A stretch of 37,396 bases of DNA from Mariniphaga sediminis (GTDB lineage: Bacteria > Bacteroidota > Bacteroidia > Bacteroidales > Prolixibacteraceae): positions 1-37,396 of the forward strand of contig NZ_QWET01000031.1 in the NCBI RefSeq assembly GCF_003573545.1, in the 5' to 3' direction. The position numbers and the translations under genes were made by a program. Under the pieces are notes generated by a model that saw only the letters and a list, made by a program, of their open reading frames with translations, was not told the DNA's origin and ran no database searches. Each line of letters opens with the position of its first letter. Within the stretch, counting starts at the first letter, position 1. This document shows positions 18,049-34,939 of this stretch, one piece after another.

Positions 18049-19155
18049 TTATTCCTCTAACTTGATAATCTCACTGCCGGCCAGTAAAAAAGCTCCGGTA
18101 CCATAAACTTCCCAACTCTCAGCAGAGAAATTTTTCCGCGGATCAGCGCCAATGGGCTGTACCCACCCTACCCTGCCGTCAGGCTGAATGAGCGAATTCA
18201 ATCCGACCCAGGCTTTTTCTACAACCGGAAGATATTTATCTTTATCGAGAAGACCATTGTTGATTCCCCAGGCTAAAGCATAAGTATAAAATCCGGAACC
18301 ACTGGCTTCACCGCCGGGATAGGAATTGGGATCGAGGAGGCTGGCACGCCATAAACCATCTTCCTGCTGCAGCGCAATAATTCTTTCCGCCATCTCTTTG
18401 TAGTTTTGCACATAAAAAGCACGGGTAGGCCAGTCCTCGGGCAATTCCTGAAGTACCTTTACCAGTCCACCCATTACCCAGCCATTGCCACGCGACCAAA
18501 AAATCTTTTGCCCGTTCGCTTCCTTAATCACTTCCACCTCGGGTTCATCCCATTTATAGCGAATATCCCGTGCATACAAATGTTCTTCTTTATCATAGAG
18601 CAAATCGTAACACTCGCGAAATAGTTTATCATTCAATTTCAGATACTGGTCATCATCAAGCGTAACTCCAAGCTTCACCAATACAGGAGGCGCCATAAAC
18701 AAGGCGTCGCACCACCACCAGGTACATTTATGAATACCTTCTATTTTATACGGTGTAATCATAAACTTATCCAGTGAGTCAATAAGCGGCTGGATCATCC
18801 TCTTTTCACCAGCAACCTGGTACATATCAATGTAGCTCTGACATATTGCATAATCGTCTGCATGTTGCAACCTCGGTCCCGGGCTCCACCTGTTTGCCTC
18901 ACCCATAGCATAAATTGCCTTGTAAATATTTTCATTTTCAAGGGTTTGGTAGGCTGCAGATACGCCGGCATAAAAAGCCCCATTAGTCCAGTCATAAAGT
19001 TTATGTTTCGGATGGTGTAATTGCCAGTCAAGTGCACCCTTCATTTTATTTTTAATATACAAGGCTTCAAAAAGTTCTTCATTTCCTTTTCTTTGTGCCA
19101 TGGATGCGCCTGCTAATAAGCTGATCGCCAAAAATGTTGCTACTAATTTTTTCAT
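18049..19155 (-). CDS. Glycoside hydrolase family 105/88, unsaturated rhamnogalacturonyl hydrolase type
   Basis: This 368-aa exported protein has a signal peptide (MKKLVATFLAISLLAGASMAQ). It belongs to the alpha/alpha-barrel GH88/GH105 group, which removes unsaturated uronic acid from the ends of lyase-cleaved polysaccharides. WTNGAFYAGV, LQHADDYAICQSY and TWWWCDALFMAPP (Asp150, the position of the catalytic acid in YteR) are visible, as is WSRGNGWVMGGL with the barrel tryptophans. GGEASGSGFYTYALAWGINNGLL and the C-terminal SAESWEVYGTGAFLLAGSE are family typical. The ATG at 19155 was preferred to a TTG at 19161. No lyase is adjacent; expression is probably set by the LacI-type operator in its promoter. 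Confidence 0.88.
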   Translation of the reverse strand: MKKLVATFLAISLLAGASMAQRKGNEELFEALYIKNKMKGALDWQLHHPKHKLYDWTNGAFYAGVSAAYQTLENENIYKAIYAMGEANRWSPGPRLQHADDYAICQSYIDMYQVAGEKRMIQPLIDSLDKFMITPYKIEGIHKCTWWWCDALFMAPPVLVKLGVTLDDDQYLKLNDKLFRECYDLLYDKEEHLYARDIRYKWDEPEVEVIKEANGQKIFWSRGNGWVMGGLVKVLQELPEDWPTRAFYVQNYKEMAERIIALQQEDGLWRASLLDPNSYPGGEASGSGFYTYALAWGINNGLLDKDKYLPVVEKAWVGLNSLIQPDGRVGWVQPIGADPRKNFSAESWEVYGTGAFLLAGSEIIKLEE

Positions 19156-19182
19156 TATCAATGCTGTTTATCGATTTTGCTA

Positions 19183-19284: not shown

Positions 19285-19316
19285 ATTGCACGGAAAAAAA
19301 TTAATCACTATCATTG
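19285..19316 (+). promoter_or_regulatory. Candidate promoter of the histidine operon
   Basis: ATTG at 19285-19288, a 20-base spacer and TATCATTG at 19309-19316 approximate the Bacteroidota TTTG-N19-TAnnTTTG promoter. Transcription would start near 19323, about 14 bases before the leader peptide ATG, the right place for an attenuator transcript. Confidence 0.5.
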
Positions 19317-19336
19317 CAAAAAAATAGGAACAGATT

Positions 19337-19381
19337 ATGAATTACGGACTGGGACATCACGGCCATCATTACAGAACCTGA
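19337..19381 (+). CDS. hisL: his operon leader peptide (His-rich, 14 aa)
   Basis: A 15-codon frame encodes MNYGLGHHGHHYRT and a TGA. Four of 14 residues are histidine, in two His-His pairs (19355-19360 and 19364-19369). It lies 230 bases upstream of hisG and directly before a terminator. Scarce charged tRNA-His would stall the ribosome at these codons. The symbol follows the E. coli leader by analogy; there is no sequence similarity beyond the His codons. Confidence 0.82.
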   Translation: MNYGLGHHGHHYRT

Positions 19382-19462
19382 CGGTTGGTAGGTTGAGGTT
19401 GTTTCGTCGTATACTCGAAAGATATTGAACCAGGGCTTGCCAATTCGGCAGGCTTTTTTTTT
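19375..19462 (+). promoter_or_regulatory. Transcription attenuator: antiterminator and intrinsic terminator
   Basis: The terminator stem GCTTGCC (19435-19441) and GGCAGGC (19447-19453) has a 5-base loop and is followed by nine T (19454-19462). Bases 19383-19394 (GGTTGGTAGGTT) can instead pair with 19434-19445 (GGCTTGCCAATT): 12 pairs, of which about six are G-U, covering the left arm of the terminator. A small AACC/GGTT hairpin (19375-19378 with 19383-19386) spans the leader stop codon. A ribosome finishing at the stop codon would cover 19383-19394 and let the terminator form; a ribosome held at the His codons would leave it free for antitermination. Confidence 0.75.
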
Positions 19463-19570
19463 GAAATTACGTTTTTATAAATCTATGAAAAGTGTAAAAA
19501 CTCAATATCGAATAAAGCGACCAGAAATCTGTTCTGATAAAACAAATTGAAAATTAAAAAAACACAGAAT

Positions 19571-20428
19571 ATGGAAAAGCTAAAAATTGCCATGCAAACC
19601 AAAGGCAGGTTAAACGAAGATTCCATGCAATTAATCCGGGAATCCGGTATTGACCTGGCTGTTGGAAGACGAAAACTGGTTTCAGAAGCGGGAAACTTCC
19701 CTATGGAAGCGCTGTTTTTGCGCGACGACGATATCCCGCAAACAGTAGCCGACGGAGTAGCCGATGTAGGTATAGTAGGTGAAAATGAGATGCTGGAAAA
19801 AGGAGAGAACGTGGTTATTGCCAAAAGACTGGGATTCAGCAAATGCCGTTTATCGCTGGCTATCCCAAAATCGATGGAGTATTCCGGCACCGCATTTTTT
19901 AATGGTAAAAAAATTGCCACCTCCTACCCCAATATCCTGCAAAAATTCCTGGATGAACATAACATAAAAGCCGAAATCCATGTCATTACCGGATCGGTAG
20001 AGATTGCACCGGGAATTGGACTGGCAGACGCCATTTTCGATATTGTCAGTTCCGGCTCCACACTGGTTAGCAACCGGCTGAAAGAAGTTGAGGTAGTTAT
20101 TCATTCTGAAGCCGTGCTAATTTCAAAACCAAACCTTTCTCAGGAAAAACAGGAGATTCTGGATGAACTGATATTTCGGATGGAGTCGGTACAGCGGGCT
20201 GAAGGGAAAAAGTATATTTTGTTGAACACGCCCAATGAAAAAATTCAGGAGGTAGCCAGTTTGTTGCCCGGAATGAAAAGTCCAACCGTAGTGCCTTTGG
20301 CAAAGGAAGGCTGGAGTTCGATGCATTCGGTTATTGCGGAGAATGATTTCTGGGAAGTCATCGGAAAGCTAAAAAAGGCCGGTGCAGAAGGGATACTGGT
20401 AATCCCGATTGAAAAAATGATTTTTTAA
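19571..20428 (+). CDS. hisG: ATP phosphoribosyltransferase (long form)
   Basis: This 285-aa enzyme joins ATP and PRPP, the first and feedback-regulated step of histidine synthesis. KLKIAMQTKGRLNEDSMQLI is the N-terminus. GVADVGIVGENEMLE and the PRPP-binding DAIFDIVSSGSTLVSN with its acidic pair mark the catalytic domain. The C-terminal 75 residues (MKSPTVVPLAKEGWSSMHSVI) are the regulatory HisG_C domain, so this is the long, self-sufficient form that does not need HisZ. The ATG at 19571 was chosen over a TTG at 19547. It is first after the attenuator, 40 bases from hisD. Confidence 0.96.
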   Translation: MEKLKIAMQTKGRLNEDSMQLIRESGIDLAVGRRKLVSEAGNFPMEALFLRDDDIPQTVADGVADVGIVGENEMLEKGENVVIAKRLGFSKCRLSLAIPKSMEYSGTAFFNGKKIATSYPNILQKFLDEHNIKAEIHVITGSVEIAPGIGLADAIFDIVSSGSTLVSNRLKEVEVVIHSEAVLISKPNLSQEKQEILDELIFRMESVQRAEGKKYILLNTPNEKIQEVASLLPGMKSPTVVPLAKEGWSSMHSVIAENDFWEVIGKLKKAGAEGILVIPIEKMIF

Positions 20429-20467: not shown

Positions 20468-21763
20468 ATGAAAACGTTCGTCAATCCTGAAAAAAGCCGC
20501 TGGTCGCAAATCCTGCAGCGCCCGTTGATGGATGTCTCCGGCTTGTATGAAACAGTACAGGGAGTACTGAATGAGATCAAACAAAAAGGGGACAGCGCTT
20601 TGCGCAAATACACACTCCAGTTCGATGGTGTGGATCTGGAGAAGTTACAGGTATCGGAAGAAGAATGGACAGAAGCAGAACGGCAGGTCGAACCTGAACT
20701 AAAAAAAGCCATTGAACTGGCAGCAAACAATATTGAAAAATTTCACGGTGCGCAGAAAACGGAAATCCGGAAAGTGGAAACAATGCCGGGGGTTAGCTGC
20801 TGGCAAAAAGCCGTCCCCATAGAAAAGGTAGGCCTGTACATTCCGGGAGGAACCGCGCCGCTTTTTTCTACGGTACTAATGTTGGCTATTCCGGCACGCA
20901 TAGCAGGCTGCAGAGAAATCGTGTTGTGCACTCCACCGGGGAAAGACGGATCTGTTCACCCTGCGATTTTATTTGCTGCAAAATATTCAGGAGTAAAAAA
21001 AGTTTTCAAACTAGGCGGCGTGCAGGCCATTGGAGCCATGGCTTACGGAACTGAGTCGGTACCAAAAGCAGACAAAATTTTCGGGCCGGGAAATCAATAT
21101 GTAATGGCAGCAAAACAACTGGTTAGTATAAACGAGGTTGCCATTGACATGCCCGCCGGGCCTTCGGAGGTGATGGTTGTTGCCGATAAATCAGCCGACC
21201 CGGCTTTTATCGCTTCAGACCTGCTTTCTCAGGCCGAACACGGTGCCGACAGTCAGGTAGTGCTGGTAACCAACAACGAAGAACTGGCTGAGCAGGTAAA
21301 AGCGCAAATTAATCTTCAACTCGAAAAACTTCCCCGAAAAGAACTGGCTGAAAAATCACTTAAAAACAGCGTACTCATTGTGATGGAAGATGAACAGAAA
21401 ATCGTTAATTTAATCAATGAATATGCACCGGAGCACCTGATTCTTTCTACTAAAAACTACAGCGAACTGGCTGAAAGAGTGTTCAATGCAGGGTCGGTTT
21501 TTCTTGGAAATTATACGCCCGAAAGTGCCGGGGACTATGCCTCCGGCACCAACCATACCCTGCCAACAAATGGTTGGGCAAGAAGTTACAGCGGGGTCAA
21601 CCTCGACAGTTTTATAAAAAAAATCACATTTCAGGAAATAACAGAAGAAGGATTAAAATCCATCGGACCGGCCATTGAAACCATGGCTGCTGCGGAACAA
21701 CTGGAAGCGCATAAAAATGCGGTAACGTTGAGGTTGAAACGAATTTTATTGGATGAAGGGTGA
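20468..21763 (+). CDS. hisD: Histidinol dehydrogenase
   Basis: This 431-aa zinc enzyme oxidises histidinol to histidine in two NAD-dependent steps. PIEKVGLYIPGGTAPLFSTVLM, KVFKLGGVQAIGAMAYGT and FGPGNQYV form the NAD site. DLLSQAEHGADSQVVLVT contains zinc-ligand Gln and His residues, and YAPEHLIL and SGTNHTLPT carry the catalytic Glu-His and a further zinc ligand His. Length is normal for the family. It follows hisG at 39 bases and is read as part of the same transcript. Confidence 0.97.
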   Translation: MKTFVNPEKSRWSQILQRPLMDVSGLYETVQGVLNEIKQKGDSALRKYTLQFDGVDLEKLQVSEEEWTEAERQVEPELKKAIELAANNIEKFHGAQKTEIRKVETMPGVSCWQKAVPIEKVGLYIPGGTAPLFSTVLMLAIPARIAGCREIVLCTPPGKDGSVHPAILFAAKYSGVKKVFKLGGVQAIGAMAYGTESVPKADKIFGPGNQYVMAAKQLVSINEVAIDMPAGPSEVMVVADKSADPAFIASDLLSQAEHGADSQVVLVTNNEELAEQVKAQINLQLEKLPRKELAEKSLKNSVLIVMEDEQKIVNLINEYAPEHLILSTKNYSELAERVFNAGSVFLGNYTPESAGDYASGTNHTLPTNGWARSYSGVNLDSFIKKITFQEITEEGLKSIGPAIETMAAAEQLEAHKNAVTLRLKRILLDEG

Positions 21764-21886: not shown

Positions 21887-22918
21887 ATGAACTTAGACAA
21901 TCTTTTACGCAAGAATATTAAAACCCTGCAACCATATTCATCCGCACGCGATGAATACACCGGTGAGGCGATGGTCTTTCTGGATGCCAACGAGAACCCG
22001 TTTAACTATCCGTATAACCGGTATCCGGATCCGCTGCAAAGGGAACTCAAGGAAAAAATTGCCCGGCTGAAAGGAGTAACACCGGAACAAATATTTCTGG
22101 GAAATGGCAGCGACGAACCCATCGACCTGCTTATTCGTGCTTTCTGCGAACCGGGCGAAGACGCTTTGGCGATAATTGATCCCACCTACGGAATGTACCA
22201 GGTAGCGGCAGGTATCAACAACGTGAATGTTAAAAAAATATCGCTCACGGAAAGCTTTGAACTGGATGCCCGGGAACTTTTAAAAAACACCGACGAGAAA
22301 ACAAAATTGGTTTTTCTCTGCTCACCCAACAACCCCACCGGAAACTGCCTCGACAAAAACGCTGTTCTCGAAGTGGTGCAGAATTTTCCGGGCATTGTAG
22401 TGCTTGACGAAGCATACATCGACTTTGCTCCGGGAAAATCGTTGCTACCACAACTAAAGGAGTTTCCGAACCTTGTGATTCTGCAAACATTTTCCAAAGC
22501 CTGGGGAATGGCAGGAATCCGGCTGGGAATGGCATTTGCCTCTCCCGAAATTATTTCGGTTTTTAATAAAATCAAATATCCGTATAACCTGAATATTCTT
22601 ACGCAGCAGAAGGCACTGGAACTGATTGAAAACAAAAAGCAAACAGAAAAGTGGATAAAACTGCTTATCGCTGAACGGGAAAAAATGACAAAATTATTAC
22701 AGGATTTCCCATTCGTCGAACACATATATCCTTCAGATGCCAATTTTATCCTGGTAAAAATGCACGATGCAAGGGGAGTTTATGAATATTTGAAAGAAAA
22801 GGGTGTAATTGTACGTGACCGTTCCAAAGTCCATCTTTGTGCGGAAAGCCTGCGAATTACCATCGGAACCTCCGAGGAAAACGGGCAATTATTACTGGCG
22901 CTGAAAGAATTAATTTAA
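21887..22918 (+). CDS. hisC: Histidinol-phosphate aminotransferase
   Basis: This 343-aa class I/II PLP aminotransferase converts imidazole-acetol phosphate and glutamate to histidinol phosphate. FLDANENPFNYP is the substrate-binding start and LGNGSDEPIDLL the phosphate region. CSPNNPTGN and VVLDEAYIDF surround the PLP ring, and Lys204 in TFSKAWGMAGIRLG is the Schiff-base lysine. LRITIGTSEEN near the end holds the phosphate-binding arginine. It sits between hisD and hisB in the same orientation, as expected in Bacteroidota. Confidence 0.96.
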   Translation: MNLDNLLRKNIKTLQPYSSARDEYTGEAMVFLDANENPFNYPYNRYPDPLQRELKEKIARLKGVTPEQIFLGNGSDEPIDLLIRAFCEPGEDALAIIDPTYGMYQVAAGINNVNVKKISLTESFELDARELLKNTDEKTKLVFLCSPNNPTGNCLDKNAVLEVVQNFPGIVVLDEAYIDFAPGKSLLPQLKEFPNLVILQTFSKAWGMAGIRLGMAFASPEIISVFNKIKYPYNLNILTQQKALELIENKKQTEKWIKLLIAEREKMTKLLQDFPFVEHIYPSDANFILVKMHDARGVYEYLKEKGVIVRDRSKVHLCAESLRITIGTSEENGQLLLALKELI

Positions 22919-22991: not shown

Positions 22992-24113
22992 ATGAAAAAG
23001 GCACTTTTTATCGACCGTGACGGTACGCTGATTTGCGAGCCGGAAGATGAACAAATTGATTCGCTGGAAAAGTTGGAGTTTATCCCGGGGGTTTTCCGCA
23101 ACCTGTTTAACATCCGGAAAAACCTGAACTACGAATTGGTAATTGTCTCTAACCAGGATGGCTTGGGAACAGCTTCCTATCCTGAAGAAACCTTCTGGCC
23201 GGCTCAAAATAAAATGCTGAAAGCTTTCGAAAATGAAGGGGTTCTTTTTGACGATATCTTAATTGACAAAAGCACTCCCGAAGAAAATGCCCCCACCAGA
23301 AAACCACGGACCGGTCTTATGGGAAAATATATGAGCGGCGACTACGATTTGGCAAACAGTTTTGTTATTGGAGACAGACTGACAGACATTCAACTGGCAA
23401 AAAACCTGGGCGCAAAAGGAATTCTCATTAACGACGGAAGTTTAACCCAAGAGCTGGAAAAACAAGGGTTGGCAGAACATTGTGTGCTGGTTTCAGGCGA
23501 CTGGGACGACATTTACGCCTGTGTAGCAGCGCCTGAACGGACTGCCGAAGTGAAACGCACTACCAAAGAAACCGATATTCTCGTTAAGCTAAACCTGGAT
23601 GGTTCGGGGGTATGTAACATTTCGACCGGGCTAAGCTTTTTCGATCACATGCTCAACCAGATTGGCAGGCATGCCGGAGCCGACCTCAGTATCTCGGTAA
23701 AAGGTGACCTTGAAGTTGATGAACACCACACCATTGAAGATACGGCGCTGGCATTGGGGGAAGCTTTCCAAAAAGCAGTGGGCGACAAAAAAGGAATGGA
23801 ACGCTACGGTTTCTGCCTGCCTATGGACGATTGCCTTGCACAGGCAGCCATTGACTTTGGCGGACGTCCCTGGTTGATTTGGGAAGCTGAGTTTAAACGC
23901 GAAAAAGTGGGCGACATGCCTACCGAAATGTTTATGCACTTTTTCAAATCCTTTTCCGATGCGGCGCGCTGCAACCTCAACATAAAAGCAGAAGGTACAA
24001 ACGAACACCACAAAATTGAAGCTATTTTTAAAGCGCTGGCCAAAGCCATAAAAATGGCTATTAAAAGGGATTTATATAATTTTGAGTTGCCTACAACAAA
24101 AGGTTCTTTATAA
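22992..24113 (+). CDS. hisB: Bifunctional histidinol-phosphatase / imidazoleglycerol-phosphate dehydratase
   Basis: This 373-aa fusion carries an N-terminal HAD phosphatase (FIDRDGTLI with the nucleophile Asp, later [12 protein letters not shown]) over residues 1-165. A C-terminal IGP dehydratase from about 180 has manganese-binding DEHHTIEDT and NEHHKIEA, plus [19 protein letters not shown]. The zinc-binding cysteines of the E. coli phosphatase loop are replaced by [12 protein letters not shown], so the phosphatase lacks that zinc site. It catalyses steps 7 and 9 of histidine synthesis. hisB is the last his gene before the insertion of unrelated sequence. Confidence 0.96.
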
Positions 24114-24456: not shown

Positions 24457-25341
24457 ATGAAAACGATAAAACCACTCCGTGAAAAAAAGAATACAGCCAT
24501 TTTGCTGATTCATTGCCCCGACAAACAGGGAATACTGGCTACGGTCACCGAGTTTTTAAATAAAAACCGGGGAAACATTATTTACCTCGACCAGCATGTG
24601 GACCGCAAGGAAAAAATCTTCTATATGCGTGTGGAATGGGAACTGGAAGGCTTTGCCATTCCGGCAGAAAAAATCGGGGAATATTTCGACACGCTCATAG
24701 GATCGCCGCTGAATATGTACTGGCGTCTCTATTTTTCGGATGATATCCCGCGAATGGCACTGTTTGTTTCCAAAATGCCGCACTGCCTGTTCGACATACT
24801 GGCCCGATATGCTGCAGGTGAATGGGATGTAAACATACCGTTCATCATCAGCAACCACGAACTGCTGAAACCTGTTGCCGACAGGTTTGGCATCGACTTT
24901 CATTTTTTCCCGGTTACAAAGGACAATAAAGACGAACAGGAGAAACTGGAAATGGAACTACTGAAAAAGTATAAAATTGATTTTGTGGTACTGGCCCGTT
25001 ATATGCAGATTCTCTCCCAAGACTTTGTAAAACAGTTTCCCAATAAAATCATCAATATACACCACTCATTTCTGCCGGCATTTGCCGGGGCCAAACCGTA
25101 CCATGCTGCCCACGAAAGGGGCGTAAAAATTATTGGCGCTACCAGTCACTACGTTACTTCTGAACTGGATGCCGGCCCTATCATTGAACAGGACGTAACC
25201 CGCTGCAGCCATGTAGACACCGTTGAAAAACTCATCCGTAAAGGACGCGATTTGGAAAAAATTGTGCTTTCACAGGCTGTTTACAAACATTTACAGCGCA
25301 AAATCCTTGTTTATAAAAACAGAACGGTGGTTTTTAATTAA
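24457..25341 (+). CDS. purU: Formyltetrahydrofolate deformylase
   Basis: This 294-aa protein releases formate from 10-formyl-THF, feeding PurT and balancing one-carbon folates. An ACT domain covers residues 14-90 (ILLIHCPDKQGILATVTEFL), followed by a formyltransferase-fold domain with VSKMPHCLFDIL, VVLARYMQIL, NIHHSFLPAFAGAKPY and TSHYVTSELDAGPIIEQD. These hold the conserved Asn-His-Asp catalytic set. It lies between the repeat-flanked remnant and a hairpin-rich gap, so it may be its own transcription unit rather than part of the his operon. Confidence 0.93.
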   Translation: MKTIKPLREKKNTAILLIHCPDKQGILATVTEFLNKNRGNIIYLDQHVDRKEKIFYMRVEWELEGFAIPAEKIGEYFDTLIGSPLNMYWRLYFSDDIPRMALFVSKMPHCLFDILARYAAGEWDVNIPFIISNHELLKPVADRFGIDFHFFPVTKDNKDEQEKLEMELLKKYKIDFVVLARYMQILSQDFVKQFPNKIINIHHSFLPAFAGAKPYHAAHERGVKIIGATSHYVTSELDAGPIIEQDVTRCSHVDTVEKLIRKGRDLEKIVLSQAVYKHLQRKILVYKNRTVVFN

Positions 25342-25347
25342 TTGGTT

Positions 25348-25427
25348 ATGAAACGAACATGAATTTTAATTCTTTAAATTCACAAACAAGAAGAATTAAA
25401 ATTGACTTAGGTCGAACTTCGTTTCAT
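25348..25427. other. Long two-part hairpin downstream of purU
   Basis: Inner arms AATTTTAATTCTT (25362-25374) and AAGAATTAAAATT (25391-25403) pair perfectly over 13 bp. Outer arms ATGAAACGAA (25348-25357) and TTCGTTTCAT (25418-25427) pair perfectly over 10 bp. The unpaired bases between the two pairs are uneven (4 and 14), and no T-run follows. It may end or slow purU transcription, or be a mobile or repeated fragment. Confidence 0.55.
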
Positions 25428-25471
25428 CGGGAGTTACATCGAATACAAAAGAAATAAACAATTTTAATGAG

Positions 25472-26020
25472 ATGAAAGCAACATTAACACTTTTTGCATT
25501 AGCAGGTTTTTTTGTTTGGGCAAATGCACAGTCAACCGGAATTCCCCGGCAGGAAATCCCGGCAGATTACGGATACATTGTAAAAATCGGACAGCAAATG
25601 CCGGATATTGAACTGATGCTGACCGACGGAACAACCATAACGACAGACGATTTAAAAGGGAAAGTGGTAATGTTGCAGTTTACAGCAAGTTGGTGTGGTG
25701 TCTGCCGGCGCGAGATGCCACACATCGAAAATGAAATCTGGCAAAAACACAAAAACAATGAAGATTTTGTGCTGATTGGCATTGACATGGACGAACCATT
25801 GGAAACAGTAAAAAAATTTGCAGCAAAAATGGAAATCACCTACCCATTGGCACTCGATCCCGGCGGAAAAATTTTTTACACCTTTGCCGCAAAAGGAGCA
25901 GGGGTTACCCGTAACGTCATCATCAACCGGGAAGGTAAAATTGTTTATATGACCCGGCTTTTTAAAGAGGAAGAATTTAATGAAATGAAAGAGGTAATTA
26001 ATTTGTTATTGGAAAATTAG
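25472..26020 (+). CDS. Secreted TlpA-like thioredoxin-family protein
   Basis: This 182-aa protein has a signal peptide (MKATLTLFALAGFFVWANAQ) and an AhpC/TSA-thioredoxin fold. The motif WCGVC (Trp74, Cys75, Cys78) sits in LQFTASWCGVCRREMPH. The family strand pattern follows (FVLIGIDMDEPLE, the cis-proline-type region near VTRNVIINREGK). It probably reduces or shuffles disulfides, or helps heme/cytochrome maturation, in the periplasm. It lies between purU and hisH with no clear functional link to histidine. Confidence 0.86.
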   Translation: MKATLTLFALAGFFVWANAQSTGIPRQEIPADYGYIVKIGQQMPDIELMLTDGTTITTDDLKGKVVMLQFTASWCGVCRREMPHIENEIWQKHKNNEDFVLIGIDMDEPLETVKKFAAKMEITYPLALDPGGKIFYTFAAKGAGVTRNVIINREGKIVYMTRLFKEEEFNEMKEVINLLLEN

Positions 26021-26113
26021 TTACTGGTTGCTTGTTACTGGTAAAAAACTTCATTCAATACGTAGAGAATAATTGGAAATCATAAACCAAAAACGAGAAA
26101 CAAGAAATAAATC

Positions 26114-26713
26114 ATGAACATCGTTATTATAAAATACAACGCCGGAAACATTGAATCGGTCAACAATGCACTGAACCGCCTGGGGGTTAATGCAGAAATT
26201 ACTGCCGATCCGGAAAAAATAAAAAATGCAGACAAGGTTATTTTTCCCGGAGTAGGAGAAGCCAGCACCACCATGGAATACCTCCGGGAGCACCAACTCG
26301 ATAGGCTTATTATTTCGCTCAAACAACCGGTGTTGGGAATTTGCCTGGGGTTACAACTTATGTGTTCCCATTCAGAAGAAAATGACACCACCTGCCTGGG
26401 TATTTTCGAAGAAAAAGTAAAACGTTTTGTCCCAAAACCCGGAGATGAATTCATTACCAAAGTACCACACATGGGCTGGAATGCAGTATACGATTTAAAA
26501 AGTGATCTTTTTTCACCCGAAATGGAGAACCGGTATGTTTACTTTGTTCACTCTTATTACGCCGGATTGGGCGAACATACAGCCGCTACCTGCAACTACA
26601 TCCTACCGTTCAGTGCCGCGTTGCAAAAGGACAATTTTTTCGCCACTCAGTTTCACCCCGAAAAAAGCGGAAAAATCGGGGCAGCCATTTTAGAGAACTT
26701 TTTGAAAATTTAA
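26114..26713 (+). CDS. hisH: Imidazole glycerol phosphate synthase, glutaminase subunit
   Basis: This 199-aa class I glutamine amidotransferase supplies ammonia to HisF. The catalytic Cys78 is in VLGICLGLQLM, and His181 and Glu183 in QFHPEKSGKIG. FPGVGEAST and KVPHMGWN are HisH-specific. The partner HisF, and HisA and HisIE, which usually follow hisH in Bacteroidota, are not in this window. argB follows after 15 bases instead. Confidence 0.96.
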   Translation: MNIVIIKYNAGNIESVNNALNRLGVNAEITADPEKIKNADKVIFPGVGEASTTMEYLREHQLDRLIISLKQPVLGICLGLQLMCSHSEENDTTCLGIFEEKVKRFVPKPGDEFITKVPHMGWNAVYDLKSDLFSPEMENRYVYFVHSYYAGLGEHTAATCNYILPFSAALQKDNFFATQFHPEKSGKIGAAILENFLKI

Positions 26714-26728
26714 ACGTTAAACCGAATC

Positions 26729-27496
26729 ATGGATAGATTAACAATTATAAAAGTTGGCGGGAAAGTAGTAGAAAATCCCGACTCGCTAAACGCCCTGCTG
26801 GATCAGTTTACCCGAATTTCCGGCAATAAAATACTGGTGCATGGCGGAGGCCGCACAGCCACTGACATTGCAGCCAAACTGGGCATTGAAACCGAAATGG
26901 TCGACGGGCGCCGCATCACCGGAAAGGAGATGCTTGACGTGGTAACCATGGTTTATGGCGGATTAGTCAACAAAAAAATTGTGGCCGGACTACAGGCCCG
27001 GGGCTGCAACGCTATTGGTCTCACCGGTGCCGACCTGAACCTTATCAGCGCGCGGAAACGGCCGGTGGCAGAAATCGACTATGGTTTTGTTGGCGATGTA
27101 ATAGACGTAAACAGCCGGGAGCTTCGCATGATGATTAATGAAAACGTAGTTCCGGTAGTAGCGCCCCTTACCCACGATGAAAAAGGCCAGCTTTTAAATA
27201 CTAATGCCGATACCATTGCCGCCGAACTGGCAACGGAGCTTTCCGATTATTTTAGCGTTTACTTGTTCTATTGTTTCGAAAAAACCGGCGTATTGCTCGA
27301 CCCCGAGGATAATAGCAGCGTCATCCATGAACTCGACATGCAGCTTTTCCTGCAGTATCAAAATGAAGGAGTTATTCATGCCGGGATGATACCGAAACTT
27401 GACAACGGTTTTCGGGCCAAGCGAAATGGGGTAAAAGAAGTATTGATTACGAACCCGGAGAACATGGCCGACGGAAGAGGTACACGATTGATCTAA
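26729..27496 (+). CDS. argB: Acetylglutamate kinase (amino-acid kinase family)
   Basis: This 255-aa kinase phosphorylates the N-acylated glutamate in arginine synthesis. IIKVGGKVV, LVHGGGRTATDIAAKLG, MVDGRRIT and AIGLTGADLNLI are ArgB motifs. NTNADTIAAELATEL and GMIPKLDNGF complete the nucleotide and substrate sites. In Bacteroides fragilis-type pathways the substrate is N-succinylglutamate, and this enzyme may have the same preference. It overlaps no neighbour but lies only 15 bases after hisH, so the two are probably cotranscribed, an unusual his-arg link. Confidence 0.9.
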   Translation: MDRLTIIKVGGKVVENPDSLNALLDQFTRISGNKILVHGGGRTATDIAAKLGIETEMVDGRRITGKEMLDVVTMVYGGLVNKKIVAGLQARGCNAIGLTGADLNLISARKRPVAEIDYGFVGDVIDVNSRELRMMINENVVPVVAPLTHDEKGQLLNTNADTIAAELATELSDYFSVYLFYCFEKTGVLLDPEDNSSVIHELDMQLFLQYQNEGVIHAGMIPKLDNGFRAKRNGVKEVLITNPENMADGRGTRLI

Positions 27497-27582: not shown

Positions 27583-28176
27583 ATGAGAGAAGGTGGCAAA
27601 AGCAACGCAATTATTTGGGAAAGTTTTCTGGCAGGCGATAAAGAAGCGTTTGCTCATATATATAACCTGTATGTGGAATCGATGTACCGGTATGGGACCA
27701 AACTTTGCAGCGACGAAAACCTTGTAAAAGATGCCATACAGGAAATTTTTCTTGATCTTTTTCTAAAAAGGCATAAAAACAAAACCAATCCGGAAAACCT
27801 TCATTATTACCTGATTTTAGCGTTAAAAAGAAACCTCATAAAAAAACTGAAACGAAACCGGAAGTTAGTAGAAGAAGAGGATTTCGAAACGGAATTTGAA
27901 CCGGAATACAGCATCGAAAAAATCATCATTGAGGACGAAGAAGAAACCGAACTGAATCGCCGGGTAAAAAAAGTATTGAGTACTTTACCGGCCAAACAAA
28001 AAGAGGCCATCTACCTCCGTTTCAACGAATCGATGGAATACCAGGAAATAGCACAAGTATTGAATATCTCCGTAGAATCAGTAAGAAAACAAGTCTACCG
28101 CGCACTATCGTCCATACGGAAGCAGTTTGGTAAGCAGGGACCGGTCTTGTTTTTATTCAACCTGAAAAAAAGCTGA
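27583..28176 (+). CDS. ECF-type RNA polymerase sigma factor
   Basis: This 197-aa sigma-70 family protein has region 2 at about residues 20-85 (FAHIYNLYVESMYRYGTKL, VKDAIQEIFLDLFLK). Region 4 is at 125-180 (LPAKQKEAIYLRFNESMEYQEIAQVLNISVESVRKQVYRAL, a helix-turn-helix). It is of the kind paired with FecR anti-sigma and STN-bearing SusC proteins in Bacteroidota glycan loci. Its anti-sigma gene is 513 bases downstream rather than adjacent, and the gap holds several hairpins. The expected target is the SusC promoter region after 29883. Confidence 0.9.
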   Translation: MREGGKSNAIIWESFLAGDKEAFAHIYNLYVESMYRYGTKLCSDENLVKDAIQEIFLDLFLKRHKNKTNPENLHYYLILALKRNLIKKLKRNRKLVEEEDFETEFEPEYSIEKIIIEDEEETELNRRVKKVLSTLPAKQKEAIYLRFNESMEYQEIAQVLNISVESVRKQVYRALSSIRKQFGKQGPVLFLFNLKKS

Positions 28177-28689
28177 TCCCACCCCAAACAGACCTTTCGA
28201 ACCTATGGCAGGATATTCCTTTCCCTCAAAGCATCAAAAAAAACTTGTAATCGGGATTTTTTATACGATCCAAAAAATCATATTGCAAAATATGCCCTGT
28301 AGCAAAAATTTCTCCTCCTGGCCGGCCTCAGTAAAGGCTAAGGAGGAGTGGCTCCGTCCAATGATGGAGACGAGGTGGTTCATAAAAAATAAAGGAAATA
28401 TTACCACCCCGATACCACAAGTGAGCGTCTTCCTTCCCCCTCCTTGACAAAAGGAGGGAAAAAACTCGATCCGGGATTTTACAAAGCTTCCTCAGAAATG
28501 GAATTATGGTAGAAAGTGGCAAACAACAGAAATGAATCCCGCAGGCAACCACACACCGTAAAACAATAAAATACAATGGCTTATGTCAAGCCATTTATTC
28601 TTTTCCGGACAACAGTTAAAAAAAATTAAAAAAATCTGTCCATATTTTACATGCTGGTGTCCTTTTAGGTTAAATGATAAAAAAACCAC
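28177..28689 (+). other. Hairpin-rich gap between sigma and anti-sigma genes
   Basis: No gene is supported in this 513-base stretch; the short open frames here have no protein-like pattern. Three hairpins stand out. CTCCTCCT/AGGAGGAG (28312-28319 with 28341-28348) encloses GCCT/AGGC. CCCTCCTT/AAGGAGGG (28438-28445 with 28451-28458) is followed by AAAAAA. AATGGCTT/AAGCCATT (28575-28582 with 28588-28595) is followed by a T-rich run and looks like a terminator. The purine-rich CTCC/GGAG pieces resemble dispersed intergenic repeats of Bacteroidota. Confidence 0.55.
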
Positions 28690-29883
28690 ATGGGAAGTAT
28701 TAGCAAATACCTTGAAGATAAGCGGTTCATACAATGGGTATTCAACCCGGGCCATGAGTTGGATGACTGGTGGAGGTCATTTGAAACCGAAAATCCCAGG
28801 GAAAAACAAAATATTCAGGAAGCAAAAAGGATTCTGCAAAAGCTGCATACGAACAACAAAGAACTTTCTGAAGACGAAAAAATCCTGCTTTTCTCCCGTA
28901 TTCTAAAACAGGTGGAAGAACATCAGCAAAACAGAAAAACCCGCAGGTTAGTTTTAGCTTTTTCAAAATACGCCGCCATTGCTATTTTGTTTTTTTCCAT
29001 TGGAGCGCTTCTTTTCTACAAAAAGAACAATTTCAATCCGCAATTTACTGCCCTCGAAACAGCGGAACCCATTCTCGAAAATGAAGCGAGGCTCATCAGG
29101 CCCGATGGAGAAAACATTCTGCTCAGTGAAAAGAATTCGCAGATAGAACACCGGCAGGATGGCCAGGTGATAATCAATAACGATGTAATAGAAAAGGATA
29201 CCCGTCCCTCCGGCAAAAAAACTCCGGAAATGAACCAGTTGGTAATTCCGTATGGAAAAACGTCGAAACTCATTCTTCCCGACGGCACCAGGGTGCAACT
29301 GAATGCGGGAAGCCGTCTGGTATATCCTGATTTTTTTATGGATAAAACCCGTGAAGTATTTCTTGTGGGCGAGGCCTTTTTTGAAGTAGAGCACGATGCC
29401 AAACATCCTTTTGTTGTGCAGACCACCGATATCCGGATCAGAGTACTTGGTACCCAGTTCAATGTTTCGGCCTACCCTTCCGAAAATATTATTGAAACTG
29501 TACTTGCTGAAGGCAAGGTGCAGCTGGAACAAAACAATACGGGGATGTTTTCAGAAACGACCGAATTAGAACCCGGTCAGTTAGCTTCCTTCAACAAAAC
29601 AGAACGTACCACACAGCTTAAAACGGTAGATATTGAAAACTACATACTCTGGAAAGACGGGCTGCTCAGATTTGCAAGTACCGACTTAAGCCGCGTTGTT
29701 AAAAGGCTGGAACGCTATTTCAACATTCGCATAAAATACAATGATCCCTTTTTGGGAGGCATTAGAATTTCAGGGAAACTTGAGTTGGGCGACAGCCGCG
29801 AGGCAGTACTGGAAAACCTTGCCGTGGCGGCTTCCATTCATATTTCTAAAATAGGAGAAAATTATTACGAAATAAGTAAATAA
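28690..29883 (+). CDS. FecR-type anti-sigma factor
   Basis: This 397-aa inner-membrane regulator has a cytoplasmic N-terminal part (residues 1-85, WVFNPGHELDDWWRSFE and LHTNNKELSEDEKILLFSRIL). One membrane helix follows at about 95-115 (YAAIAILFFSIGALLFY). The periplasmic FecR domain has LVIPYGKTSKLILPDGTRVQLNAGSRLVYP and REVFLVGEAFFEVEHDAKHPFVV, and a C-terminal DUF4974-like part has DLSRVVKRLERYFNI. It would hold the ECF sigma factor and release it when the STN domain of the SusC partner signals substrate. A 9-bp hairpin separates it from susC. Confidence 0.92.
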   Translation: MGSISKYLEDKRFIQWVFNPGHELDDWWRSFETENPREKQNIQEAKRILQKLHTNNKELSEDEKILLFSRILKQVEEHQQNRKTRRLVLAFSKYAAIAILFFSIGALLFYKKNNFNPQFTALETAEPILENEARLIRPDGENILLSEKNSQIEHRQDGQVIINNDVIEKDTRPSGKKTPEMNQLVIPYGKTSKLILPDGTRVQLNAGSRLVYPDFFMDKTREVFLVGEAFFEVEHDAKHPFVVQTTDIRIRVLGTQFNVSAYPSENIIETVLAEGKVQLEQNNTGMFSETTELEPGQLASFNKTERTTQLKTVDIENYILWKDGLLRFASTDLSRVVKRLERYFNIRIKYNDPFLGGIRISGKLELGDSREAVLENLAVAASIHISKIGENYYEISK

Positions 29884-29886
29884 TAA

Positions 29887-29916
29887 AACCGGCAGACGCT
29901 GCAACGCCTGCCGGTT
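29887..29916 (+). other. Hairpin between anti-sigma and susC
   Basis: AACCGGCAG (29887-29895) pairs with CTGCCGGTT (29908-29916) over 9 bp with a 12-base loop. No T-run follows. It begins 4 bases after the anti-sigma stop and may be a partial terminator or an mRNA stability element between the regulator and the transport genes. Confidence 0.6.
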
Positions 29917-29962
29917 CAAATGTGTTAAATTTTAGTATTGTGTAACTTAACATTTCAAAAGT

Positions 29963-32900
29963 ATGAAAAAAAGACGAGATTGTTTTTCTCCTCATGGAGA
30001 AATCAGGAAACTTAAATTAAGTTTAAAAAAAATGAAACTAACACTAATTTTTTCTATGCTGACCCTCCTCACTTTCGGGAATGGATTTTCCCAGGTTAAG
30101 GTGACCCTACATTTTGAAAAAGCATCCATTCAGAATGTACTTGAAACAATAGAGAACCAAACCGGTTATGTATTTTTGTATAAAGACGAAATTTTTAACC
30201 CAGACCAAAAATACTCCGTGGATTTTACCGATGAACCTTTTAACGAGGTAATCAAATCGGTTTGTGAGAAAGCGGGAGTAGAATACGAAGTCCGGAGCAA
30301 CCGGCAGATTATCCTCACGGAAAAGGGACAGGAATCATTGCTGAATATTAATTTCCAGCAAAAAACGGTTACCGGCATGGTTACTGACCAAAGCGGACTG
30401 CCATTACCGGGTGTTACTGTTGTTGTACCAGGAACAACTACAGGTACCGTAACCAATGCCGACGGAAATTTCTCTTTGGCAGTTCCTGACGGCACTGAAA
30501 TCCTGCAGTTTTCGTTTGTGGGTATGCAGACACAGGAAGTGTCCATTGCAGGAAGGACTACTTTTACCGTGGTGCTGGAGGAAGAGACAATAGGGATTGA
30601 AGAAGTGGTTGCAATTGGATATGGAACAGTTAAAAGAACAGACCTTACGGGTTCAGTAGGCCAGGTTTCCAGTGATAATTTAAAAGACTTAAATATTTCG
30701 AATACGACTCAGGCATTGGCAGGACAAATTAGTGGTGTTTCAGTGCAACAGGGTTCCGGTTCACCTGGTAAAGGAGCAATAATACGCGTTCGTGGGGCAG
30801 CATCAATTACTGCTAATAGCGATCCTCTTTATGTTATTGATGGTTTCCCAATTACAGGTGATTTGTCAGTTCTTAATCCAAATGATATTGCATCAATTGA
30901 AGTGTTAAAAGATGCATCGGCATCTGCCATATATGGTTCAAGAGCTTCAAACGGCGTAATTCTTATCACAACTAAATCGGGCAAAAAGGGTGAAGCTAAA
31001 ATTCAATTTGATAGCTACGTTGGCTTTCAGACTGTTGCTAAAACCTTAGATTTGATGAATGCTCAAGAGTTTATAGAGTTGAACAGGGAAGCCTTTAATA
31101 CAAAATATATTGAAAGTGTACCAGGTGCTAAAATTACGGATCCTGTTGTAAATCGACCTTCTGGTTACCGATATAAGTATCCGGATTTTTATGATGATCC
31201 TGCAGCAGTTGCCGCAGTGGGGAATGGAACAGACTGGCAGGATGAAATTTTCAGATCTGCACCGATTCAAAATTATCAATTAAATGTTTCAGGAGGCTCT
31301 GAAAGTACAAATTACTTTTTCTCTGCCGGATATTTTAATCAGGAAGGAATTATCATAAATTCAAACTTTGAACGATTTTCATTACGTGCAAAGATTGATA
31401 CGAAGATAACTGATCGACTCACTGCAGGTATCAATTTAGCACCAAATTACTCAATAAATAATGATATAGCAGAAGGACATCCGAGTAACGGAGTTATTAT
31501 TCAGGCATTAGCTATTGCTCCATGGATACCAGTAAGATACGATAACGGTGTTTATGGTACTGCAACAGATTATGGTAAAGCTGGAGGTGATGGAATCACG
31601 GGAATAGTAAATGCGGTTGCAACTGCTACTCATACCAAAAATCAATCAAATAGATTGCAGATGTTCTCAAATGCATATGCCGAACTTTCACTACTTAGTG
31701 ATAAAAGTTTAAAACTGAGAACATCAATTGGTGCCACTATAACAAACTACAGAAGGAACTACTTCCGTGCAGCAGGTCTAATGCCAATTGCCGGAAACCC
31801 TGGTTTGGGACTACCCCAACACCGTAGAGCCGAATCAGATGCGCAAGAAACATTCAATTATTTGAACGAAAACACCTTATCGTATTCTAAAACACTTAAT
31901 GAAAAACATAATTTTGATGCAGTTGCTGGTTTTACTGTACAAAAACAAACCTGGATGCAAACCTATGCAAATGGGTCTGATTTTCCGGACGATATTATTG
32001 AGGTAATAAGTAATGCGACTATAAGACAAGGTTCGTCCAATATAAATGAATGGGCAATGATGTCATATCTGGGTCGATTAAATTACAACTATAATAACAA
32101 ATACTATGTAACTGCCTCGTTTCGTTCAGACGGTTCTTCAAAATTTGGAAAGAATAATCGATTTGGAAATTTTCCTTCAATGTCATTAATGTGGCGTGCA
32201 ATTGAAGAAGACTTTATTAAAAACGGGAATCTCTTCAGTGATTTAAGATTACGTGCAAGTTATGGTGTAACGGGTAATGATAATTTGTCAAATAATTATG
32301 CAGCAATTGGAACAATAGCTACAAGTAATTATGCATTTGGAGCTGGATCCGGAGTTATAGTAAACGGTGCCAATATGAATTCTATCTCTAATCATAATCT
32401 TACATGGGAAAAAGCATCTCAATTAGACTTAGGATTAGAATTTGGTTTCTTTGATAATAAACTGACTTTTCTGACTGATTTTTACAGTCGTAAAACAACA
32501 GACCTGTTATTGAATGTGCCGGTCCCTACAATTACTGGATTTAGTAATGCTTATCAGAACATAGGTAGAGTAGATAACTGGGGATTAGAATTTAATATTC
32601 GAGCAAATGCTATCAATACCAATGATTTTTCTTGGTTAATTAGTGCTAATTTATCAATGAACCGTAACGAAGTTAAAGCGTTAGGTCCATCAGGTGACCC
32701 AATATATTACACCGGTCAAACAAGAGGTGAAGGACATGTATTGAAAATAGGTTTTCCAATGGGAACCTTTTACGGATATGATCATATTGGAGTTTATATG
32801 AATCAGGAAATGTTTGACGAAAATCCAAAAGAAGCAACTTCTCATGTGGGTGATGCTATGTATCGTGATGTTAATGGTGATAAAGTAATCACTGCTGCTG

Positions 32901-33430
32901 ACCGTACTGAAATTGGTAAGGCTGAACCAGATTTTTATTACGGAATAAATAATTCTTTTTCCTATAAAAACTTTGATTTAGGGATACTTATTCAAGGTTC
33001 ATATGGAGGAGAGATATTACACATCGGGAAACGATATTACGAAAACTTAGAAGGAAACCAGAACCAATTAAGAACGGTATTGAATAGATGGAGGTCAGAA
33101 GAAGATCCGGGTGATGGTTGGATACCTCGCGTTCGTTCAACACCCACGGGCCAGACAAGCCAGATTTCCACTCGTTGGGTTGAAGATGGTTCATATTTGC
33201 GCGTGAATAATATAACTTTGGGGTATTCCTTTTCGAATACAACACTAAGCAAATTAAATATTGAAAATATGCGGGTAAATATTTCAGCTCAGAATCCAAT
33301 TACAATAACAAACTATTCTGGCTTCAATCCTGAAGTTAATACATCTGAAAATACGGTCTTAGCTGGATCAGACCACGGAGTGTATCCTTTATCTAAGTCG
33401 TTTACCTTAGGATTAAATATAACTTTTTGA
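29963..33430 (+). CDS. SusC-like TonB-dependent outer-membrane receptor with STN domain
   Basis: This 1155-aa receptor imports oligosaccharides with its SusD partner, powered by TonB. After the N-terminus and signal (MKLTLIFSMLTLLTFGNGFSQ), the STN signalling domain spans about residues 46-122. A carboxypeptidase-regulatory-like domain covers 133-208 (GLPLPGVTVVVPGTTTGTVT). A TonB-box-like IEEVVAIGYGTVKR is at 212-224, then the plug (QISGVSVQQGSGSPGK, YVIDGFPI), and the barrel follows to the C-terminal SFTLGLNITF. The STN domain fits regulation through the FecR/ECF pair. Base use changes near residue 235: sampled GC is about 50% before and near 30% after. This suggests the barrel was acquired separately. 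Confidence 0.95.
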   Translation: MKKRRDCFSPHGEIRKLKLSLKKMKLTLIFSMLTLLTFGNGFSQVKVTLHFEKASIQNVLETIENQTGYVFLYKDEIFNPDQKYSVDFTDEPFNEVIKSVCEKAGVEYEVRSNRQIILTEKGQESLLNINFQQKTVTGMVTDQSGLPLPGVTVVVPGTTTGTVTNADGNFSLAVPDGTEILQFSFVGMQTQEVSIAGRTTFTVVLEEETIGIEEVVAIGYGTVKRTDLTGSVGQVSSDNLKDLNISNTTQALAGQISGVSVQQGSGSPGKGAIIRVRGAASITANSDPLYVIDGFPITGDLSVLNPNDIASIEVLKDASASAIYGSRASNGVILITTKSGKKGEAKIQFDSYVGFQTVAKTLDLMNAQEFIELNREAFNTKYIESVPGAKITDPVVNRPSGYRYKYPDFYDDPAAVAAVGNGTDWQDEIFRSAPIQNYQLNVSGGSESTNYFFSAGYFNQEGIIINSNFERFSLRAKIDTKITDRLTAGINLAPNYSINNDIAEGHPSNGVIIQALAIAPWIPVRYDNGVYGTATDYGKAGGDGITGIVNAVATATHTKNQSNRLQMFSNAYAELSLLSDKSLKLRTSIGATITNYRRNYFRAAGLMPIAGNPGLGLPQHRRAESDAQETFNYLNENTLSYSKTLNEKHNFDAVAGFTVQKQTWMQTYANGSDFPDDIIEVISNATIRQGSSNINEWAMMSYLGRLNYNYNNKYYVTASFRSDGSSKFGKNNRFGNFPSMSLMWRAIEEDFIKNGNLFSDLRLRASYGVTGNDNLSNNYAAIGTIATSNYAFGAGSGVIVNGANMNSISNHNLTWEKASQLDLGLEFGFFDNKLTFLTDFYSRKTTDLLLNVPVPTITGFSNAYQNIGRVDNWGLEFNIRANAINTNDFSWLISANLSMNRNEVKALGPSGDPIYYTGQTRGEGHVLKIGFPMGTFYGYDHIGVYMNQEMFDENPKEATSHVGDAMYRDVNGDKVITAADRTEIGKAEPDFYYGINNSFSYKNFDLGILIQGSYGGEILHIGKRYYENLEGNQNQLRTVLNRWRSEEDPGDGWIPRVRSTPTGQTSQISTRWVEDGSYLRVNNITLGYSFSNTTLSKLNIENMRVNISAQNPITITNYSGFNPEVNTSENTVLAGSDHGVYPLSKSFTLGLNITF

Positions 33431-33457
33431 TATAACTAATCATAAAATTATTTACAG

Positions 33458-34939
33458 ATGAAAAAAATAATAAAACTCGGAAATATTGTTTTTATATTTC
33501 TTATTCTATACTCATGCTCTGACTTCTTAGACCTTGCTCCAAAAAATATGTTAAGCGAAGAAGTATTTTATGAAACACCAGAACAAATAGATTATGCTTT
33601 GACCGGTGCTTATTCGATACTCAGAAGTAATGGGGTAACAAAAAACTGGTATATACTGACTGAAATACCTTCAGACAATACGTATGGAGTGTTATCAGGA
33701 ACTGTTACAGACAGAGATGAATTCGATAAATTTTATTTGCGTTCATTAAATCCGTATCTGTCAGCATTCTGGAATGACGCATATTCCGGTATTAACCGTG
33801 CAAATAAAGTTATTGAGGAATTATCAGGCTCAGATATTGATGAATCATTAAAAAGTCGTTATACGCTCGAAGCAAAGTTTCTTAGAGCATTTCTTCACTT
33901 CAATCTTGTCCGAATTTTTGATGATATACCTTTAATGACAAAAACAGTTACTATACCTGAATCTTATGAAGTGATACGTTCTGATAAGAATAAAGTGTAT
34001 ACACAAATTATTGCAGATCTTACTGATGCTTCTGCTCTCCCTAAATCATACGCTTCGCAAGAAGATATTGGTCGGGCAACGTCTGGTGCTGCAAAAGCAC
34101 TGCTAGGTAAAGTTTACTTAACCATGGGTGACTATCCGAATGCTGCTATTCATCTCAAAGAGGTAATTACTTCCAACCAATATAGTTTAATAGAAAATAG
34201 TACGCCAGGTACATGTGATGGATTTGAAAAATATTTCGATCCGGATAATCATAATAACCAGGAGGCTATTTTCGAGGCTCAATTCAAAAAAGGAGGATTT
34301 GGTACCGGAAGTGGTTGGGTAAATACATTTGCTCCTGGCGCGTCTGGTGATAATGTAGTTGCAGTTGGTGGCAATGGTGATGACAATATCCCGGAAGAAG
34401 GAATGTGGGAATCTTGGGATGAAGGTGATTATCGAAGAGACTTTTCTATGGCTTTGGGGTATACAAACAAAACAACGGATAATTGGGTTAGTGCACGCCA
34501 CGTTCGTAAATATCGCGACATTCCCTATGATAATGGAGATAGTAATAATAATTGGCCATTTCTAAGGTATGCAGATGTTTTATTGATGTATGCAGAATGT
34601 TTAATTCAAAGTGGTGACTTTTCTGAAGCAGCTGAATATATTAATAAAACTCGTCGTCGTGGTTTTGGATATCAAAGTTCAGAGGTTGGTTCACCTGCTG
34701 ATATTTCAGCTAGTGGTAAAGATCAACTTCTTTTGGCAGTAGAAAAAGAAAGACGGAATGAATTGGCTTTCGAAGGTCATCGTTGGTTCGATTTGGTTCG
34801 GACTGGTCGTGCTCTTGAAGTAATGACTGCTAATGGTAAGAGCTTAAATGAAACGAATTTAATAGCTCCGATACCGCAAAATCAGATAGATGCAAATCCG
34901 AAACTTGAGCAGAATGACTATAGAATAGAACCAAGATAA
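33458..34939 (+). CDS. SusD-like surface glycan-binding lipoprotein
   Basis: This 493-aa RagB/SusD family protein has a lipoprotein signal (IFLILYSCSDFLDLAPK). LSEEVFYETPEQIDYALTGAYSIL and SGINRANKVIEEL match the family N-terminus. TPR-like helices (EAKFLRAFLHFNLVRIFDDIP) and ELAFEGHRWFDLVRTGRALEVM with IPQNQIDANPKLEQN mark the C-terminal part. It sits 27 bases after susC and would form the hinged lid of the SusCD transporter. The whole gene shares the AT-rich base use of the susC barrel. The glycan cannot be told from the sequence. Confidence 0.95.
   Translation: MKKIIKLGNIVFIFLILYSCSDFLDLAPKNMLSEEVFYETPEQIDYALTGAYSILRSNGVTKNWYILTEIPSDNTYGVLSGTVTDRDEFDKFYLRSLNPYLSAFWNDAYSGINRANKVIEELSGSDIDESLKSRYTLEAKFLRAFLHFNLVRIFDDIPLMTKTVTIPESYEVIRSDKNKVYTQIIADLTDASALPKSYASQEDIGRATSGAAKALLGKVYLTMGDYPNAAIHLKEVITSNQYSLIENSTPGTCDGFEKYFDPDNHNNQEAIFEAQFKKGGFGTGSGWVNTFAPGASGDNVVAVGGNGDDNIPEEGMWESWDEGDYRRDFSMALGYTNKTTDNWVSARHVRKYRDIPYDNGDSNNNWPFLRYADVLLMYAECLIQSGDFSEAAEYINKTRRRGFGYQSSEVGSPADISASGKDQLLLAVEKERRNELAFEGHRWFDLVRTGRALEVMTANGKSLNETNLIAPIPQNQIDANPKLEQNDYRIEPR

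Follow-up and report, generated by a model that had tools for sequence, protein, structure and literature searches.

How is histidine synthesis switched on and off in Mariniphaga sediminis? The question is raised by a 37,396-nt stretch of DNA, contig 25 of a 5.8-Mb genome and referred to here as the window, in which a short His-rich ORF precedes the genes of the cognate pathway. These genes follow the leader in the order hisG-hisD-hisC-hisB, with hisH farther downstream and possibly on the same transcript. All five were called by NCBIfam models with scores above the cut-off (Table 1); hisA, hisF and hisI were not identified among the 14 window proteins scanned. The nearest named relatives of the window HisG are Mariniphaga loci, with up to 91% identity, and many further matches are titled Prolixibacteraceae. 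In window 24457-27496, hisB and hisH are separated by purU (TIGR00655) and a TlpA/ResA-like gene, and argB (TIGR00761) comes after hisH. Farther along, sigma factor, FecR, TonB-dependent receptor and SusD genes stand in a row (27583-34939) and form an ordinary nutrient-uptake locus.

Table 1. Positions of the his leader elements and his genes in the window.
Feature	Position	Strand	Basis and remarks
Possible -33 TTG element	19286..19288	+	Sequence only; 20 nt upstream of the -7-like box
-7-like promoter box TATCATTG	19309..19316	+	Sequence
his leader ORF MNYGLGHHGHHYRT	19337..19381	+	ATG, 14 codons, TGA stop; His-rich
Strand 1, GCCATC	19362..19367	+	RNAalifold; lies in the Gly-His-His codons and is complementary to strand 2
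Strand 2, antiterminator left strand	19383..19394	+	Folds, conservation of the 2:3 pairing; core GGTAGGT 19387-19393
Strand 3, antiterminator right strand	19434..19445	+	Folds, covariation; overlaps the terminator left arm and loop
Intrinsic terminator	19432..19462	+	Hairpin 19432-19456 (loop 19442-19446); T-run 19454-19462, nine T
hisG	19571..20428	+	TIGR00070, 194.5 bits; TIGR03455, 102.1 bits
hisD	20468..21763	+	TIGR00069, 557.6 bits
hisC	21887..22918	+	TIGR01141, 371.9 bits
hisB (bifunctional)	22992..24113	+	NF003937, 525.9 bits
hisH	26114..26713	+	TIGR01855, 213.2 bits

On the evidence of its sequence, the operon is very probably controlled by a ribosome-mediated (leader-peptide) transcription attenuator. 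The original prediction had read the region as a ribosome-stalling attenuator, and this reading is supported by the identification of the his operon and by the conservation of the His codons, both stems and the T-run in relatives. Every part that it listed is present in the sequence, and its coordinates are right.

The 14-codon leader with four His that it had described carries these residues at codons 7, 8, 10 and 11. Among the 399 ATG ORFs of 8-45 aa found on both strands of the window, seven, the leader included, have at least three His within 8 codons, and only the leader has four. Upstream of the ORF, the predicted promoter-like sequence is present as TATCATTG. The TTG that precedes it is a possible -33 element. 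TATCATTG matches the Bacteroidota -7 box TAnnTTTG, a consensus also given in PMC9723704, in all letters but one. In 112/172 regions, compared with 99/860 shuffles, the related motif TAnnWTTG lies among the 70 nt that precede the leader start, at a median position of -27.

The regions upstream of hisG in relatives were compared, as had been proposed, for conserved His codons, both stems and the T-run. To count as a leader, an ORF could begin at any ATG within the 450 nt preceding hisG and had to contain three or more His in a span of 8 codons; the terminator test required that a hairpin of -9 kcal/mol or stronger with a T tail follow it. Of a first 50 genomes in which hisG was matched, 47 were compared, the own genome among them; G008, G052 and G057, whose matches are weak or partial, were set aside. 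The other 92 of the 139 genomes compared come from 212 further ones with a hisG match, among the matches listed; genomes without any match (10/60 and 34/247) lie outside the counts. His leader and terminator together were found upstream of hisG in 107/139 genomes, own included: 31/33 in the family, 14/16 in the order, 43/54 in the class and 19/36 in the phylum. The 92 were chosen mostly from the better-scoring end with some further down, so that the phylum figure is no random sample. The same combination is absent from the controls (0/139 reverse strands, 0/417 dinucleotide shuffles) and is therefore not due to chance. The short ORF rich in the codons of the operon's own amino acid was found, with or without a terminator, in 120/139 genomes (32/33, 14/16, 52/54 and 22/36 by the same ranks), compared with 1/139 reverse strands and 14/417 dinucleotide shuffles. 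When the longest ATG ORF was taken instead (else other starts), the leader counts were 31/33, 14/16, 53/54 and 21/36, with 6/139 reverse strands. Leader, terminator or both are missing in 32/139 genomes. In a set of 69 named loci that overlaps the 139 genomes (70 minus L065, whose 5' end is missing), 66 have the leader and 65 have both parts; the four others are L050, L060, L069 and L070, of which L069 belongs to Chloroflexia and L070 to Thermobaculum by title. No leader was present in the five distant hisG types sampled (L206-L210).

These counts bear on one competing explanation, namely that the ORF arose by chance and that the terminator is constitutive or belongs to an upstream transcript. 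Regulation cannot be proved by sequence evidence alone, which leaves this explanation some room. It is nevertheless very improbable, given the empty controls for the leader-terminator pair, the match between terminator arm and strand 2 across lineages described below, and the orientation of the neighbouring ORF: on the other side of the leader, ORF 18049-19161 lies on the opposite strand and is divergent, which argues against a terminator of an upstream transcript.

An intrinsic terminator lies between the leader and the first structural gene. The one predicted at 19435-19462 was confirmed, as a hairpin at 19432-19456 with nine T. The stretch 19432-19465 folds at -13.5 kcal/mol (z -3.4, 0/200 shuffles as good) and 19430-19462 at -14.0 kcal/mol. 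The antiterminator, predicted as a pairing of 19383-19394 with 19434-19445 that covers the left arm of the terminator, was recovered exactly by folding 19368-19445 (-21.1 kcal/mol). Folding 19383-19447 pairs 19384-19394 with 19434-19444 at -21.0 kcal/mol (z -3.2, 1/200 shuffles as good). By sequence and folding, the antiterminator would thus exclude the terminator and would lie downstream of a stalled ribosome. The window antiterminator is only modestly better than that formed with shuffled upstream sequence (3/100 as good, p 0.03). The fold of the whole 143-nt leader has a z of only -1.5, with 11/200 shuffles as good, a weak value that can be explained by the mutually exclusive structures. 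Free folding of the full leader favours the antiterminator; an untranslated leader might therefore read through.

Covariation was scored on an alignment of the window with 46 of 55 named loci (n=47), near-duplicates being dropped and eleven distant or odd loci having already been left out. In the terminator stem, formed by strands 3 and 4, 98.8% of cells are paired, and 6 pairs and 22 cells are changed on both sides; shuffle means are 2.1 and 6.8, and 0/500 shuffles are as high. In the antiterminator stem, formed by strands 2 and 3, 100% of cells are paired, and 2 pairs and 3 cells are changed on both sides; shuffle means are 0.1 and 0.1, and 1 and 0 of 500 shuffles are as high. Covariation within the family is thus strong for the terminator and slight for the antiterminator.

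Beyond the family, 158 regions (162 hairpins minus four weaker than -9 kcal/mol) were sorted by terminator arm into the types GGCTTRCC (92), CCCGTYTGA (33), CCCCGG (13) and others (20). The CCCGTYTGA-type regions may include the Flavobacterium psychrophilum lineage. With the best duplex picked per sequence, the mean energy of pairing between the upstream strand and its own terminator arm is -13.7 kcal/mol, compared with -10.1 kcal/mol for the arms of other sequences. Pairing across the three named types gives means of -6.5 to -8.4 kcal/mol. Inside one type the gain from the own arm is small, 1.2 to 2.4 kcal/mol (-14.5 vs -13.2, -12.8 vs -11.6 and -13.4 vs -11.0). Compared with mononucleotide-shuffled upstream sequence, own-arm pairing reaches p<=0.05 in 82% of the 158 regions and p<=0.01 in 51%, and lies above 0.05 in 18%. 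That the own arm pairs better on average suggests that the sequence of the strands has changed between lineages while their complementarity has been kept.

The sequence around the His codons is free to drift among relatives. Strand 2 has a recognisable core in 116 of the 158 regions. There the median distance from the last His codon to its start is 15 nt (10th to 90th percentile 9-18), which places it about at the expected front edge of a stalled ribosome. With this spacing, a ribosome stalled on a His codon would leave strand 2 accessible and one at the stop codon would cover it. In many relatives strand 2 is the leader's own end, encoding Gly-Arg-Leu/Gln/Pro. In this genome and in L002-L005 the stop codon comes earlier, and all or part of strand 2 follows it; L003 is the similar leader of Mariniphaga anaerophila.

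A metabolite-sensing RNA, such as a T-box or a riboswitch, could also be envisaged, the His-rich ORF then being incidental. A structured 5' region with a terminator is typical of riboswitches too. However, a search of the whole window with Rfam at gathering score returned one tRNA only and thus no family on the leader stretch, and it is the His codons that recur in relative after relative within sequence that drifts around them. We regard such an RNA as highly unlikely here.

The anatomy of the attenuator is conserved, and its strands 2, 3 and 4 covary. The mechanism that we infer from it extends to transcription start, leader translation, stalling, the role of strand 1, termination efficiency and the histidine response. 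RNA polymerase would start a few bases after the -7-like box, at about 19323, and a ribosome would begin the 14-codon leader behind it. With charged tRNA-His plentiful, the ribosome would reach the stop codon; it would then cover strand 2 while finishing, or strand 2 would pair with strand 1 after its release. In either case strand 3 would be left free, the terminator would form and transcription would end before hisG. With charged tRNA-His scarce, the ribosome would stall on the His codons and cover strand 1, its front edge falling short of strand 2. Strand 2 would then capture strand 3 as the antiterminator, and RNA polymerase would read into hisGDCB.

Strand 1 is a possible addition to the three-strand switch originally put forward. 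That switch comprised strands 2, 3 and 4; a possible fourth partner, GCCATC, had been missed. RNAalifold on the aligned sequences proposes a third stem, GCCATC with GGTAGGC, between strands 1 and 2. Since GCCATC can pair with strand 2 in this family, control could lie with a ribosome stalled on strand 1 as well as with one that finishes on strand 2. After release of the ribosome, strand 1 would provide additional termination.

A simpler version of the attenuator dispenses with strand 1: the finishing ribosome covers strand 2, and no anti-antiterminator functions. The layout would allow this, as strand 2 lies directly behind the stop codon in the window and its core begins before the stop-codon end in most of the 116 regions (median -12 nt). 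No pair of the 1:2 stem is changed on both sides among the 47 aligned sequences, and column shuffles score as well, so that covariation gives it no support. In the window the 1:2 hairpin has -5.8 to -8.1 kcal/mol in isolation, and the best fold of 19337-19398 is another structure without this stem. The stem reaches p<=0.05 against shuffles in 26% of the 92 GGCTTRCC-type and 54% of the 13 CCCCGG-type regions. In the CCCGTYTGA type it was not detected: the mean over 33 regions is -3.4 kcal/mol, and 6% of them reach p<=0.05. This lineage may therefore use ribosome occlusion alone. Against a general absence of strand 1 stands the complementarity of GCCATC and GGTAGGC, which is kept in 96.8% of cells in the 47 sequences, compared with 10-46% when the stem is slid by 1-3 columns, although the stem was proposed from the same alignment on which pairing was scored. 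Moreover, in the 44 sequences with a Gly in the His run its codon is GGC in 43, compared with 257/899 of the hisG Gly codons at these loci. This suggests that the RNA itself is under selection; the sequences are related, hence no probability is attached to the comparison. On balance, occlusion without strand 1 is a tenable but somewhat doubtful version of the mechanism.

The attenuator proposed for the window resembles enterobacterial hisL (RF00514), which also has a short His-rich ORF and mutually exclusive terminator and antiterminator upstream of hisG, with the same inferred logic. It differs in that the four His are interrupted by Gly, whereas hisL has a run of seven, and in its promoter box, which is of the Bacteroidota type. 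RF00514 gave 0 matches over the cut-off in the own genome, and none of 4 weak matches lies at the leader site. Membership of this family was therefore rejected, for want of a match at gathering score. The Bacteroid-trp RNA (RF01692), which we take to be a trp attenuator, was rejected as well, with 0 matches in the genome at E<=1, even though trpE here has Trp-rich leaders and terminators. Weinberg 2010 (PMC2864571) lists RF01692 as a probable cis-regulatory RNA of Bacteroidetes. Classical leader-peptide attenuators are described in Proteobacteria and Actinobacteria (PMC1262725, PMC2965389 and PMC4833913). They use coupled transcription and translation as a sensor, as proposed here, in other phyla.

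The original prediction knew of no established example with this leader in this group. This has to be revised: according to PMC9723704, transcript mapping in Flavobacterium psychrophilum had already given strong clues that leader-peptide attenuation acts ahead of amino-acid operons, together with a structured 5' element of hisG that is conserved in other Flavobacteriaceae genera and has no Rfam hits. These candidates belong to the same phylum, and attenuation was proposed for them too; the principle was therefore already known and its presence in the phylum already suggested. Unlike the present work, the passages of PMC9723704 consulted give no leader sequence or alternative stems for hisG. 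No paper on a his leader peptide in Bacteroidota was found by title or start of abstract, and Lopatovskaya 2010 may describe some. What is new here is the distribution, the covariation and the extra strand.

Similar leaders precede other amino-acid operons. In relatives, a Trp-rich leader with a terminator was found upstream of trpE in 17/18 regions (19 minus L238, which has a wrong frame at a contig edge) and an Ile/Leu/Val-rich leader with a terminator upstream of ilvD in 20/20 (L272-L291; in a few rows the printed ORF is probably not the true leader), with 0 reverse strands in both cases and with thresholds, as for thrA, set after viewing the leaders of this genome. Upstream of thrA this genome has a candidate leader ending GKTTTTA and a terminator, but the pair recurs in only 2/19 relatives' regions, two of which (L254, L260) are misplaced at contig edges; a thr attenuator is therefore not claimed. 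The prephenate dehydratase gene of this genome has no leader-terminator pair. Two tandem units of Trp leader and terminator lie upstream of trpE in 8 of the 10 regions inspected from 19 fetched (L224, at G000:C15, 386 to 43 bases upstream of trpE; L227-L231, L233 and L234). Tandem units of His leader and terminator lie upstream of hisG in 5/193 unique regions (L053, L057, L061, L134 and L139). Both tandem counts carry no shuffle baseline. They invite the question of what is gained from a second attenuator.

Whether leader-peptide attenuation is old and general for the amino-acid operons of Bacteroidota (his, trp and ilv in the family) is to our mind evenly balanced. It would then be a device whose strand sequences drift between lineages while complementarity and His-codon spacing are kept, which has been elaborated as tandems (for trp in 8 of the 10 relatives inspected, for his in a few cases) and which in some lineages has been uncoupled from the intrinsic terminator. 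The mechanism is a textbook one, carried by many relatives in a phylum where it is hardly documented. For histidine synthesis it provides a well-supported and testable regulatory element, and this in a large phylum in which the control of operons has received little study. Its strand sequences, which differ by lineage, look like compensatory mutants made by nature. In addition, each attenuator indirectly indicates a ribosome close behind RNA polymerase at the start of an operon. Translation in Bacteroidota is largely initiated without Shine-Dalgarno sites; if the proposal is true, transcription and translation would be closely coupled at the leaders all the same, and the phylum could serve to examine whether coupling persists when initiation is not led by Shine-Dalgarno sites.

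The uncoupling from the terminator refers to 13/139 genomes that have a His leader without an intrinsic terminator by the hairpin test. They are L181-L185 and L189 (one family), L108, L109 and L119 (one genus), and L101, L197, L199 and L202. In several of these regions a hairpin, recognised by eye, lies on or beside the last His codons, which makes another outcome, through Rho or translation, possible.
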